Shown here: in pieces, positions 29,262-62,466 of the stretch
Layout of the letters: each line of letters begins with the position of its first letter
Numbering within the stretch: the first letter of the stretch is position 1
NCBI RefSeq assembly: GCF_000178835.2
Contig: NC_015275.1
Coordinates: 1,509,001 to 1,573,000 of the forward strand
Reading direction: 5' to 3'
Source: Cellulosilyticum lentocellum DSM 5427
GTDB taxonomy: Bacteria; Bacillota; Clostridia; Lachnospirales; Cellulosilyticaceae
DNA: 64,000 nt
Notes under the pieces: generated by a model
Seen by the model: the letters and a program-made list of their open reading frames with translations, nothing else
Told to the model about the DNA's origin: nothing
Database searches by the model: none
Program-made: the position numbers and the translations under genes

Positions 29262-29548
29262 ATAGATGAAGGATTATCAAAAGTTAAGATAATCGAATAT
29301 ATTAATGGTATAAGAATAAAAGCAATGAAAGAAAGAGTATTATGAAAAATTATGTCAGAGAAGACTCGGTTGGTGAAAGAGTTTCATAGTGATTCATAAG
29401 AAGTGCATTCTGGAGCTGGATATGTGAAGTAGTTTAGCATATCTCGTAGACTGACGTTACCAGTAAATGAGATAGGGGATTTATGTCCCTTAATCAGAGT
29501 GGAACCGCGAGTGACTTCGCCTCTGAACAAGGAGGGGGAGTTTTTTTA
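29262..29548 (+). promoter_or_regulatory. T-box riboswitch, tRNA-Cys specific, controlling cysE-cysS
   Basis: The T-box core sequence AGAGTGGAACCGCG lies at 29496-29509. It is followed by a terminator stem ACTTCGCCTC / GAGGGGGAGT (29514-29541) and seven T residues. In stem I, GAAG-TGC-ATTCTGGAG offers the cysteine codon TGC at 29404-29406 as specifier. The downstream genes make and use cysteine, which supports the reading. Uncharged tRNA-Cys would stabilise the antiterminator and allow transcription. Confidence 0.88.
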
Positions 29549-50365: not shown

Positions 50366-50603
50366 AACAAAAGACAAATTACCTGGGGTGTACGACAACC
50401 TGTTATTTTGAACCTACAAATTATGCACGGGAACTTGATTTACTTACTAGCTATGTCAGGCCACAAGATAATTCCCTTTGGGCAGTGGAAGGCAGAATAA
50501 GTAAGAAAGGTACCCACCTAGAGTAGTCTAGGGCGTCAAAATCGCAGGACCGGCATTTTGGGCATTGTATGAGCATCAACCTATAAGAGGTTGATGCTTT
50601 TTT
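50366..50603 (+). ncRNA. ssrS: 6S RNA
   Basis: The region between a strong promoter and an intrinsic terminator has no ORF. Its two ends pair as in 6S RNA: CCTGGGGTG (50382-50390) with GCATTTTGGG (50553-50562), then an internal loop (TACGACAA opposite ACCGG), then CCTGT with GCAGG, leading into a long interrupted stem with a central bubble. The TTTTGAACC segment near the 5' side is like other 6S RNAs. 6S RNA binds the housekeeping RNA polymerase by imitating an open promoter. The assignment rests on structure and recalled family features, not on a covariance search. Confidence 0.75.
50573..50603 (+). terminator. Terminator of 6S RNA
   Basis: A perfect 10-bp stem (50573-50582 with 50588-50597, loop ATAAG) is followed by six T residues. 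Confidence 0.92.
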
Positions 50604-56825: not shown

Positions 56826-56996
56826 ATGTTTTGTAAGCGTTGTAAAGAAAAAGGGAAAGTAAGAAAGCAAGTCCTTATTCGTTGTAAGCAGTGTGGGGAA
56901 GAGACATATGTACCACTTTATAACAATGATAAGTGTCAAAAATGTAATGAAGCAGCAAATACCTGTGAAGAATGTGGTAGGAAAATAGATTCATAA
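56826..56996 (+). CDS. Small zinc-ribbon protein
   Basis: A 56-codon frame starts MFCKRCKEKG and contains four CxxC pairs (CKRC, CKQC, CQKC, CEEC), enough for two zinc ribbons. Upstream AAGGCGAG is a fair ribosome binding site. It lies 80 bases after the metallopeptidase gene on the same strand and before a bidirectional terminator. No specific family is recognised. Confidence 0.7.
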   Translation: MFCKRCKEKGKVRKQVLIRCKQCGEETYVPLYNNDKCQKCNEAANTCEECGRKIDS

Positions 56997-58613: not shown

Positions 58614-59732
58614 ATGGATATGCTTAGAAAGTACATCGAAGAGCTCATTGATAAGAGTACACCAGCTAGACCTATATGGAATATTGAAAAAATATTACAA
58701 GGTAAAGAGCCAACATGGAATTACATAGATGGATGCATGATTAAAGCACTTTTAGAAATGTATGCCATTACTAAAGGGGAAAAATATTTAGCTTTTGCAG
58801 ATGATTTTATTAGTTATCATGTAAGAGAAGATGGTCAGATTAATCACTATGATATTCATGAGTTAAACATCGACAATGTTAATGCAGGAAAGGTGCTTTT
58901 TGAACTTTATGAGTTAACAGGTAAAGAAAAGTACAGAAAAGCTATAGATACAGTTTATGAGCAAGTTAAAATACAGCCTCGTACAAAGGAAGGTAACTTT
59001 TGGCACAAGAAAATCTATCCAAATCAAGTTTGGTTAGATGGACTTTATATGGGGCAACCTTTTTATATGGAATATGAAACAAAGTTTAATAATAAGAAAA
59101 ACTATAAAGATATTTTCAATCAGTTTGCTAATGTTGAAAAAATAATGAAAGATTCTAAAACAGGCTTATATTATCATGGTTATGATTCTTCAAGAGAAGC
59201 TTCATGGTGTGATAAAGTAACCGGTCTTTCTAAAAATTTTTGGTTGCGTGCATTAGGTTGGTATGTTATGGCACTCTTAGATACTTTAGAAAAGATGGAT
59301 TCAACCTATACAGAAGGTTATACACAATTAAGCAATAACTTTAAAGATATTATGGAAGCTATAATTAAATTCCAAGATGAGAGTGGTATGTGGTATCAAG
59401 TAGTAGACCAAGGTAATAGAGAAGGAAACTATCTTGAAACGAGTGGTAGTGCTATCATGGCATATGGTATTCTTAAAGGAGTAAGAATGGGCTTCTTACC
59501 AGAGAACTATAGAGCATATGGTGAAAAGGCATTTAAAGGTATTTGTGATAAATATTTATATGAGAAAGATGGAGAGCTTTGCTTAGGAGGCATTTGTCTT
59601 GTGGCAGGATTAGGTCGTCCAGACAGTAGAGATGGTACTTTTGAATACTATATTTCAGAACCAGTTGTTGAAAATGAAGCTAAAGGTGTTGCACCACTTT
59701 TATTAGCTTATACTGAAATTTTAAGATTATAA
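58614..59732 (+). CDS. GH105 unsaturated rhamnogalacturonyl hydrolase (YteR/YesR-like)
   Basis: This 372-residue alpha/alpha-barrel enzyme removes the unsaturated galacturonyl residue left at the end of pectin (rhamnogalacturonan) fragments by lyases. Typical motifs are NYIDGCMIKALLEMY near the N-terminus, QVWLDGLYMGQPFYMEY with the likely catalytic Asp, and SKNFWLRALGWYVMALLD. No signal peptide is present, so it works in the cytoplasm on imported oligosaccharides. It is monocistronic; no pectin lyase or transporter lies beside it. Confidence 0.9.
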   Translation: MDMLRKYIEELIDKSTPARPIWNIEKILQGKEPTWNYIDGCMIKALLEMYAITKGEKYLAFADDFISYHVREDGQINHYDIHELNIDNVNAGKVLFELYELTGKEKYRKAIDTVYEQVKIQPRTKEGNFWHKKIYPNQVWLDGLYMGQPFYMEYETKFNNKKNYKDIFNQFANVEKIMKDSKTGLYYHGYDSSREASWCDKVTGLSKNFWLRALGWYVMALLDTLEKMDSTYTEGYTQLSNNFKDIMEAIIKFQDESGMWYQVVDQGNREGNYLETSGSAIMAYGILKGVRMGFLPENYRAYGEKAFKGICDKYLYEKDGELCLGGICLVAGLGRPDSRDGTFEYYISEPVVENEAKGVAPLLLAYTEILRL

Positions 59733-59739
59733 TGATAAG

Positions 59740-59774
59740 AAGCTGATTTCTAGTATCTAGAAGTCAGCTTTTTA
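59740..59774 (+). terminator. Terminator after GH105
   Basis: A 14-bp stem with one mismatch (59740-59753 with 59757-59770), overlapping the start of a T-run. Confidence 0.85.
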
Positions 59775-60208
59775 ACAAGGAGACAACAAGATTTGAGATT
59801 AAGAAAAAAGTGAATGATTAAGGGTATAAAATAAGTAAACTGGCGCATAATAAGCTTGTACAGAAGATATCTCAAAGGTAATCTTACTGTATATAGGTTA
59901 GGAGATGGTACCCTTGGAGAGTGGAATGCAGTAGCAAACTAGTTAAAGAGAGTTATCACAACCTAATATTGCCTAGCTAAAACATAGTTTATTAATGCTA
60001 ATTCAGGAAGCTTAAGCTAGTAGAGTCTAGCCATACTAAGAAACATCTTAGGCCGTGATCGTTTGAGTAACTACTTATTGATCATCACCATAACTTAGTC
60101 TGGGGGCTACCCAAAGTAAGCAAACTTACAAAGTTACAAGGAATGAGAATAAAGGTGAAAGATTTAAGCGAATAATTAGCTGTGAACTTTATTTTAATGA
60201 AGGCAATC
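59775..60208 (+). other. Gene-free, hairpin-rich stretch: candidate structured RNA or gene remnant
   Basis: No intact ORF is present, but the stretch is visibly less AT-biased than nearby spacers and ends in a strong terminator. Local stems include TACAGAAGAT with ATCTT(A)CTGTA, TAGGTT with AACCTA, GCTAG-TAGAGT-CTAGC, CTAAG-AAACAT-CTTAG and GTAAG-CAAA-CTTAC. One frame, 59835-59939, stays open for 35 codons (contains LTVYRLGDGTLGEWNAVAN) before a TAG and then a second stop at 59964, but has no start or ribosome binding site. Either a large non-coding RNA or decayed coding DNA is possible. I do not recognise a known RNA class. Confidence 0.4.
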
Positions 60209-60241
60209 AACGAGAGCTGTAAAAGGCTCTCGTTTTGTTTT
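60209..60241 (+). terminator. Terminator at the end of the hairpin-rich stretch
   Basis: AACGAGAGC pairs with GCTCTCGTT (60209-60217, 60226-60234), followed by TTGTTTT. No protein gene precedes it directly. Confidence 0.8.
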
Positions 60242-60363
60242 GATTTAATCTGAAGTTTTTGTAGAATTATAAAGAATTATTACTAATACAACTTTCTTTT
60301 TATAGGAAAATAGTATAATATTTATAGTACTAATAGTAAATAATGTCTAATGAAGAGGTAGTT

Positions 60364-62466
60364 ATGATAAACAAGAAGAAGCTAGAAGAGCAGCTTGATA
60401 ATATAAAAAAGGATCCTACTTATATAGATGGTTTTATTGCATTAATGACAAGAAGTTGGGGGGGGGATATAGAGGATAATATTGAGGCTATTAAAGGCGC
60501 TATATCCCTTATTCATAAAGAAGAAGGTAAAAAAGCTTATATTGAGCTATTAATGCTACAAGCAAAATATTATTTTGTTTTGGGAAAGTATAGCCAGGGG
60601 ATAGAGGGTTTATTAGATGGCGTTCAAATCCTACAAGAGCCTAAAAATGAGGTAGAGAAACATCAACTTATTCAACTTCAAAATATGTTGTTAGTAGGCT
60701 TTACAAAAAAAGAAGAGTTTGCGCTAGCTATTGAATATGGTTTACAAGGCCTTGAGAAAGCTGAAGCCTTAGCAAGGCCTGAAATTAAAGTAAAATTATT
60801 ACTAAGTATTTTAGATTTATATATTGCTATTAAAGCTTACAAAAAAGCAGAATTTATTTTACAGAATATCGTTGCCATAGACTATATTTTAATGGATACA
60901 ACTAAGCTTTATATTGAGATTGCTTGGCTTAAACTTTTTTTGTGCCAAAAACAATTTGAACTAGCAGCTGAATATAGTAAGAGAGCTTATGATTTAGCCA
61001 AGAAGAATGAAGAACAGTATGCACTTGAATTGATCCAGATTTTAAGTTTAAGAGCAAAACTTAATGTAAGTCGTGAATTATATGCACAAGCAGAAAAGGA
61101 CTTTAAGGATATAAAAGAAAGAATTAAGAAAATTAGATTTAAAGAAATAGAAGAACAAAGTTTATTTGAATGGGCGAAATATGATAAAAAACAAGGAAGA
61201 ATGAATGAGGCTATTCAAAAATTAAAAAAAATTATTGAAGAACAAGATGAATCACTGATTTATGTTAAAGAAAGTTATAAACTATTAAGTGAAATTTATG
61301 AAGAAACTAACGAGTGGCAAGATGCATACAGGTATCTGAGAAAATATGAAAAAAGTAAAGAGAATATATTAGATGAAAATGTACATAAATACTTTGATAA
61401 ACTGAATCAAATTAATATGACTAAAGAAATTGAAAAATACAAATTACTTTATCAAGATATGCAAGTTCTTGCACAGATAGGCGTTGCTTTGACAGAACAT
61501 TTAAAACCAACAGTACTCAATAATAAAATATATAAGCAGCTGAGTAAATTATTTAAGATGGATTTATTCAGTATTCTTATATTAGATCAAGAAGTACCTC
61601 GATATATTTTGGTTGATCATAAAGGTGATATTGTGAAAGAACGTAAAGAACTTATTAGAAATACAGAGTATTTAGCAGAATACTGTACCAAGGAAAGAAT
61701 AGATATTTCAGTAAGTAATGGAGATTTTGAAGCATATCATATAAAAGAGATAGGTGAAGCAGAAGAGTTACAACTACAATCAGTTCTTTTTACGCCACTT
61801 ATCATAAATGATAAGGCGATAGGGGCTGTTGGAATAGGAAGCTACAAGGTCAATATATTTAATAGTAATGACCTTAATTCATTACGTGTAATTGCGTCTT
61901 ATTTGGCTATCACAATACAAAATACTACTTTATATCATCAAGCAGAGTATTTAGGAATGCATGACTCGCTTACCGGTCTTTTAAATAGAGGTGCTTTATT
62001 AAAGCAAGGAGAAATACTATTTAAGAAAAATCATAAACAACATAAAAGCACAGTTGTGATGATGTTAGATACAGACTATTTTAAGCAAGTAAATGACCGC
62101 TATGGTCATCAATTAGGCGATGAAGTACTAAAGAAAATAGGAAAAATCCTAAAAAAAGTGGTTAGAAAGCAAGATTATGTAGGACGATATGGCGGAGAAG
62201 AATTTTTAGTGATATTAGATGATTTATCGGAAAAAGAAGTCGTTAAGGTATGTCAAAGAATTAAAAAAGCCTTAAGTGAAAGTTGTTTTGAAACTAAAAA
62301 GGATACCAAGATTAAAGTAACTGTAAGTGGAGGGTTTTATATCTGTAATGAGTATACCTTAAACTTTAGTGATGCTATTCAATTTGCAGATCATGCTTTA
62401 TATCGTGCTAAATTATTAGGTAGAAATCGTATGATTAGTTATTGTTTAGGAGAGAATGAATCTTAG
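60364..62466 (+). CDS. TPR-GAF-GGDEF diguanylate cyclase
   Basis: From ATG 60364 (GAAGAGG upstream; an upstream ATG at 60343 has no such site) the protein has 700 residues. The first 340 or so form TPR-like helical repeats, then a GAF-like domain (about 365-515) and a GGDEF domain with the active-site motif RYGGEEFLVI near residue 608 and DSLTGLLNRGAL at its start. It should make cyclic di-GMP. No membrane helix is present. A canonical inhibitory site (RxxD) is not evident before GGEEF. TPR repeats suggest control by a protein partner. TATAAT at 60314-60319 is the likely -10 box. Confidence 0.9.
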   Translation: MINKKKLEEQLDNIKKDPTYIDGFIALMTRSWGGDIEDNIEAIKGAISLIHKEEGKKAYIELLMLQAKYYFVLGKYSQGIEGLLDGVQILQEPKNEVEKHQLIQLQNMLLVGFTKKEEFALAIEYGLQGLEKAEALARPEIKVKLLLSILDLYIAIKAYKKAEFILQNIVAIDYILMDTTKLYIEIAWLKLFLCQKQFELAAEYSKRAYDLAKKNEEQYALELIQILSLRAKLNVSRELYAQAEKDFKDIKERIKKIRFKEIEEQSLFEWAKYDKKQGRMNEAIQKLKKIIEEQDESLIYVKESYKLLSEIYEETNEWQDAYRYLRKYEKSKENILDENVHKYFDKLNQINMTKEIEKYKLLYQDMQVLAQIGVALTEHLKPTVLNNKIYKQLSKLFKMDLFSILILDQEVPRYILVDHKGDIVKERKELIRNTEYLAEYCTKERIDISVSNGDFEAYHIKEIGEAEELQLQSVLFTPLIINDKAIGAVGIGSYKVNIFNSNDLNSLRVIASYLAITIQNTTLYHQAEYLGMHDSLTGLLNRGALLKQGEILFKKNHKQHKSTVVMMLDTDYFKQVNDRYGHQLGDEVLKKIGKILKKVVRKQDYVGRYGGEEFLVILDDLSEKEVVKVCQRIKKALSESCFETKKDTKIKVTVSGGFYICNEYTLNFSDAIQFADHALYRAKLLGRNRMISYCLGENES

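Follow-up and report, generated by a model that had tools for sequence, protein, structure and literature searches.

A structured RNA with a predicted sigma-G-type promoter and its own terminator upstream of a diguanylate cyclase gene in Cellulosilyticum

The genome of Cellulosilyticum lentocellum (G000) is a single contig of 4,714,237 bases; the window, which is the whole 64,000-nucleotide stretch of DNA that was analysed, corresponds to G000:C1:1509001-1573000. Near its 3' end a gene-free stretch lies between a GH105/GH88-type gene and a diguanylate cyclase gene. The features of this locus, in window positions and with conservation counted over eight family members, are as follows.

58614-59732, GH105/GH88-type gene (Pfam Glyco_hydro_88), flanking the gene-free stretch on its 5' side
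59824-59828, + strand, -35 element GTATA of a predicted sigma-G-type promoter (GHATR in six of eight members)
59846-59852, + strand, -10 element CATAATA of this predicted promoter (YATAMTA in all eight members; sigma-G fits best of eight sigma consensuses)
59857-59893, + strand, hairpin P1 at the predicted 5' end of the RNA, variable in sequence (folds in all eight members)
59897-59967, + strand, core P2, with a GTTAGG/CCTAAT stem, an inner GATGGTAC/GTTATC stem and a small UGC-AGUA-GCA hairpin
59969-60206, + strand, 3' domain, closed by the long-range helix P4 between TTGCC (59969-59973) and GGCAA (60202-60206)
60103-60117, + strand, conserved GGGGCTACCCAAAGT hairpin element inside the 3' domain
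60209-60241, + strand, intrinsic terminator of the RNA (terminator scan and separate folds)
60343-62466, + strand, TPR-GAF-GGDEF (diguanylate cyclase) gene, outside the RNA (Pfam GGDEF, 8.8e-45)

A preliminary description had presented 59775-60241 as free of genes, rich in stems and equipped with its own terminator, and all three properties were borne out. The longest start-to-stop open reading frames are two antisense frames of 41 amino acids each; none of the six longest open pieces in the three forward frames has a Pfam match at the cut-off (best E 0.18). The stretch folds at -112 kcal/mol against a mean of -95.9 for shuffled sequences (z -2.86; none of 100 shuffles equalled it). The terminator scan returns a single site in 59700-60360, at 60209-60234, where 0.2 would be expected. 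The hairpin proposed as the terminator of the GH105 gene, at about 59736-59773, is visible in the sequence and missing from the scan. The 3' end of the proposed unit stands at about 60241; its start is moved to the promoter at 59824, since 59775-59820 is not conserved.

Homologs of the RNA are found in three genera. By BLAST, 59888-59969 matches DNA in five of the six other Cellulosilyticum genomes and in Sporanaerobium hydrogeniformans (G007), which makes seven genomes with the window's own; among 392 genomes of the order, a covariance model built on the core (R1) picks out these seven and no others at E<=0.01. With laxer filters over the 24 genomes of the family, R1 adds G008, which belongs to a further genus (E 0.029). 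The locus in G008 has a similar upstream element, a P1 hairpin, an GGGGATGATTCCCTTGGAGA core and a terminator. The RNA is present in eight of the 24 family genomes, comprising six of seven Cellulosilyticum (the window's genome, G001, G003, G004, G005 and G006), S. hydrogeniformans and G008; the first seven of these are referred to below as the close members. The RNA measures 385 nt in the window, 320 in G004, 427 in G006, 432 in G003, 229 in G007, 429 in G001, 388 in G005 and 266 in G008. The seventh Cellulosilyticum genome (G002), which is 84% complete, contains no acceptable match. Phages and plasmids yielded no match to the RNA, nor did viral contigs when searched with two exact patterns drawn from the core of the close members; such patterns would overlook a member as divergent as G008.

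Matches outside these eight genomes were discarded. A scan of the class with a second model (R2) returned two of 391 genomes at E<=0.05, G000 and G747, from an evenly drawn sample that contained no other known member; the match in G747 is a plain hairpin with a T-run. An order-wide pattern search matched 15 of 392 genomes, eight of them the members; by eye, the other seven sites (L063, L064, L073-L077) have open reading frames running through them and no such RNA around them. A Planctomycetia contig (L051) with one 23-base match, scoring 16 bits with R2, was judged to be chance. Weak model matches within the family fell on terminator hairpins, tRNA genes or coding-like sequence (L055-L057, L061, L078-L082, with the second inspection of L055 falling off the match) or were dropped on score alone (L058-L060, L083-L087).

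The preliminary description proposed a large noncoding RNA and offered a decayed protein gene as the alternative. The homologs uphold the former: they share a common topology, compensatory changes in P1 and terminator-like 3' ends. The idea of a decayed gene arises from a 35-codon open piece in the window that holds GDGTLGEWNAVAN, and the first seven codons of the GDGTLGEWNAVAN frame are alike in all members. This frame stops within eight codons in five of eight members, after seven codons in each case (G006, G003, G001, G007 and G005); it runs on to 13 codons in the window and in G004 and to 22 in G008. No protein family is recognised by Pfam, and P1, immediately upstream, contains indels and covariation. 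The homologs thus already refute the decayed gene, to which we attach next to no probability.

When each sequence is ended at its terminator-like hairpin and folded separately, all eight members show the same plan: a variable hairpin (P1), a conserved core stem (P2), a 3' part of variable length and a terminator-like hairpin. T-rich sequence follows this last hairpin in all eight, the T-run being weak in G006 and G001. An extra hairpin, P3, is found in G004, G006, G003 and G001. Two long-range pairings had been suggested from the window alone. The TAGGTT/AACCTA pairing was in the right place and in the wrong register; the register shared by the seven close members pairs GTTAGG (59897-59902) with CCTAAT (59962-59967). 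The CTAGCT/AGCTAG pairing falls away, as both segments are confined to the window's copy.

Within the P2 core, GGAGATGRTACCCTTGGAGA is strongly conserved, and two GGAG motifs are each kept in seven of eight members (GGGG in G008, GGAA in G007). The 3' domain is poorly conserved outside four Cellulosilyticum members (the window, G006, G003 and G001), in all of which, as aligned, TTGCC pairs with GGCAA. Pairing of this type also appears when G004 and G007 are folded singly, and is absent from the folds of G005 and G008. The same four members and G005 contain GGGGCTACCC, which is absent in G004, G007 and G008. Core-only folds give a z of -1.82 for the window (10 of 200 shuffles as good) and of -2.3 to -4.9 for six others; whole-RNA folds that include the terminator give -5.5 for G008 and -7.0 for G007. 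A pseudoknot between the core GTAGC and the GGGGCTACC loop could form in some members, is impossible in G001 and shows no covariation; it is not claimed here.

Comparison with relatives, a check that had been proposed for the noncoding reading, reveals compensatory changes that are strong in P1. A sequence-only alignment (A3) has 91.7% of its cells paired. Both sides of the pair change in eight of its 33 pairs, against a mean of 2.9 in shuffles, a count that none of 500 shuffles reaches, and at most 3 in a slid register; further pair types are matched in 3 of 500 shuffles. In a model-fitted alignment that includes G008 (A5), both sides change in 11 of 33 pairs (shuffle mean 4.1, 11 not being reached in any of 500 shuffles; at most 4 in a slid register). 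P1, which has 15 pairs, contains every one of the eight covarying pairs of A3 and nine of the 11 in A5. The P2a stem is invariant and P2 has no covarying pair in A3; in A5 it has one in the inner stem and one in the small hairpin, both owed to G008. The fold of P2 consequently rests mainly on its recurring topology. The RNAalifold covariation term is about zero and slightly unfavourable (+0.06 kcal/mol for A3 and +0.12 kcal/mol for A7, the 3' alignment).

The position of the RNA raises the question of whether it is a gene or a leader. It lies on the same strand as the TPR-GAF-GGDEF gene and upstream of it in all six Cellulosilyticum members, with a gap of 48-245 nt, as would a cis-acting leader (a riboswitch or attenuator) with a conditional terminator. 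A TPR-GGDEF relative is found in seven of the 24 family genomes, every one of which carries the RNA; six of the seven are of one genus, so this co-occurrence is a weak hint of a functional link. A separate promoter for the GGDEF gene is weakly supported in the six gaps (sigma-A p 0.01-0.34; the best consensus in the window's gap is sigma-G, p 0.06), and read-through or a shared signal may therefore occur within Cellulosilyticum. Against a leader, the gaps of G004, G006, G003 and G001 (four of six) have in common a -10-like GTAAAATTTA before the gene, which is perhaps the -10 region of the GGDEF gene itself.

In S. hydrogeniformans the RNA is present and no TPR-GGDEF relative is found at E<=1e-5; the RNA is flanked by HxlR and ftsH genes, and ftsH, the next listed sense gene, lies about 0.75 kb beyond the terminator. 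In G008 it is flanked by a BadF-type gene and a convergent DUF3810 gene, with no forward open reading frame of at least 60 amino acids after it within the 3.1-kb locus. Two TPR-GGDEF relatives of G008 are about 43 and 173 kb away from the RNA, and neither has the RNA upstream of it. A constant place before the sense gene of one pathway, as expected of a riboswitch or cis leader, is thus seen in the six Cellulosilyticum members and fails in G007 and G008. These different neighbours indicate an independent unit, so the RNA does not serve generally as a cis leader, and control of the TPR-GAF-GGDEF gene in cis is an unlikely account of it. The sequence-level marks of a stand-alone structured noncoding RNA are found at the locus: a predicted promoter of its own, a terminator, covarying stems (chiefly P1) and noncoding sequence.

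The start of the TPR-GAF-GGDEF gene itself contains a run of nine G residues at window 60458-60466, in a low-GC genome. This run is a possible slippage (phase-variation) site for the diguanylate cyclase.

Directly upstream of P1, six of eight members have GHATR-N17-YATAMTA, with near matches in G006 (GAATT) and G008 (ACATA); the -35/-10 spacing is 17 nt in all eight. Among the seven close members, identity is 0.73 in the -35 element and 0.86 in the -10 element, compared with 0.44 in the spacer and 0.40 upstream. Eight sigma consensuses were scored at the site, with 10-nt windows from these loci as background. For sigma-G, p is 0.002-0.010 in seven members (the top 0.2-1.0% of windows) and 0.09 in G008, with a geometric mean of 0.0045. 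Geometric means for the other consensuses are 0.055 for sigma-E, 0.074 for sigma-B, 0.37 (chance) for sigma-A and 0.15-0.17 for the rest. The test was not blind: the motif had been seen by eye before scoring, the scored consensuses were set down before a printed version was consulted, and the members, being related, do not give an independent combined p.

An excerpt of PMC3416734 prints the sigma-G consensus as GNATA / CAWAMTA, and the window's GTATA-N17-CATAATA, as was found after scoring, fits it exactly. The same excerpt gives predicted sigma-G promoters for the relative Epulopiscium, such as GCATA / CATAATA for spoVT. Passages of PMC3789822 describe the sigma-G promoters of C. difficile as closely resembling their B. 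subtilis counterparts and as having a conserved A that follows the -10 element. Exact GNATA-N17/18-CAWAMTA occurs at 22 sites in 2.53 Mb of genome strands, about one per 115 kb, the RNA's own site included. A motif search of 1.26 Mb of genome recovered no known sigma-G gene as a control set, and the consensus is accordingly uncalibrated in this genus. At the sequence level, and by a test that was not blind, the RNA has a predicted promoter of the forespore sigma factor type, as CsfG-like sporulation RNAs do.

The same stand-alone RNA might instead be transcribed under another sigma factor (sigma-F, sigma-E or a vegetative one) and not be specific to sporulation. Sigma-E scores somewhat above chance, and the sigma-F and sigma-G promoters of C. 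difficile are very similar to each other according to PMC3789822 (in part). Sigma-G is far the best of the eight consensuses, sigma-A is at the level of chance and the window's site matches the printed sigma-G consensus exactly; transcription by a different sigma factor is therefore considered unlikely.

Another sigma-G-like site, GAATA-N18-CATACTA, lies 31 nt ahead of an open reading frame for a hydrophilic protein of 51 amino acids (L140 9685-9839, - strand; G000:C1 near 4,009,800). This frame has no Pfam or NCBIfam match and possibly encodes an undescribed small spore protein. At the RNA locus, a sigma-70-like site on the - strand (TTGAGA, 17, TATTAT; 59875-59847; 10 of 12 matches) overlaps the place of P1 and the promoter, and is a possible source of antisense transcription. 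Five sigma-70-like sites are found in the region, where 2.8 are expected.

As the preliminary description had judged, the locus does not match the RNase P, 6S or T-box models of Rfam. With Rfam 15 at E<=10, all matches in the window region and in six homologous loci (those other than G008) are below their gathering scores. The RNase P of the genome (RF00010) is elsewhere, at C1:2575001-2575351 (309 bits), as is the 6S RNA of the window (RF00013), at 50377-50568 (65.6 bits); 6S is likewise a long structured bacterial RNA, and its model does not match the RNA described here. A T-box leader is present at 29316-29527 of the window (Rfam, 130.3 bits). OLE, GOLLD and ROOL are likewise large structured RNAs that contain conserved stretches; the present RNA is shorter and has no Rfam match.

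CsfG of Bacillus is about 200 nt long and contains two near-identical 19-nt stretches. The present RNA is 229-432 nt long with a different conserved core, and is set apart by the description of CsfG only. The likeness lies in regulation: an excerpt of PMC9147052 describes CsfG as a stand-alone noncoding RNA tied to the forespore sigma factors, expressed there under sigma-F and sigma-G. The raiA/ModT RNA is similarly structured, stand-alone and abundant in Bacillota, and PMC11706538 reports an effect of ModT on both cyclic di-GMP and sporulation in C. difficile. The RF03072 covariance model for raiA does not match the RNA; over its cut-off it finds nothing in 24 family or 76 order genomes, where no control passed the cut-off either, which leaves the absence of raiA unproven. 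The best raiA match in the window's genome lies elsewhere and has 16 bits against a cut-off of 101.3. Given these functional parallels, the RNA could belong to a known class (raiA/ModT, OLE, 6S or CsfG) and have diverged too far for the narrow Rfam models to recognise it. Against this stand the Rfam scores and the location of 6S and RNase P at other loci, and we regard it as very unlikely.

The Soda Lake RNA (smtA motif, HRC-65-1) is also large (>350 nt), structured, confined to one genus and of unknown function, as outlined in part of PMC11109978; it differs, in a comparison by description only, in being found in Thioalkalivibrio upstream of smtA. Term searches of the main text of two structured-RNA genome surveys (PMC11109978 and PMC8632094) did not return the genus, and RNA terms were absent from the text searched of a C. 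ruminicola transcriptome paper. Among freely accessible articles, supplements aside, searches for noncoding RNA of C. lentocellum or Cellulosilyticum, for large RNAs of Lachnospir- taxa and for forespore sigma-G RNAs returned no description. The RNA appears to be new, in that no earlier description was found in Rfam or in the literature searched.

The reading that we favour, and hold to be probable, is that of a stand-alone, sigma-G-dependent, structured RNA of about 385 nt that would be expressed in the forespore and act in trans. Forespore RNA polymerase with sigma-G would start the RNA directly before P1, and the intrinsic terminator would end it; the RNA would then fold into the hairpin, the conserved core stem and the 3' domain. 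Action in trans is suggested by the varying place of the locus and by the lack of a close downstream sense gene in two genera. The conserved core would most likely hold a protein or another RNA during spore maturation, since the most conserved letters cluster in P2 beyond the needs of pairing. An antisense mode of action is possible; it is not favoured, as the conserved letters lie in the folded core. A bolder proposal, which we find doubtful, is that the RNA may represent a new class of forespore ribonucleoprotein, in which the GGAG-bearing core binds a protein or the ribosome, with a role in entry into or exit from dormancy; it would do in this lineage what ModT or CsfG does elsewhere, with a fold of its own.

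To our knowledge, sporulation has been linked to only a small number of structured noncoding RNAs, hardly any of which is understood mechanistically. For the present RNA the start, promoter type, fold and 3' end are all predicted, and its eight natural variants (229-432 nt) delimit a conserved core. A direct test is possible in a sequenced, spore-forming cellulose degrader. According to an excerpt of PMC3416734, C. lentocellum forms endospores and, of the endospore formers whose genomes are complete, is the one most closely related to Epulopiscium, a giant bacterium in which sporulation has been turned into the production of offspring.

In two Cellulosilyticum genomes a small cysteine-rich, zinc-ribbon-like protein is encoded close to the RNA, at 56826-56996 of the window and at 1186-1386 of L009; the two are similar by eye.
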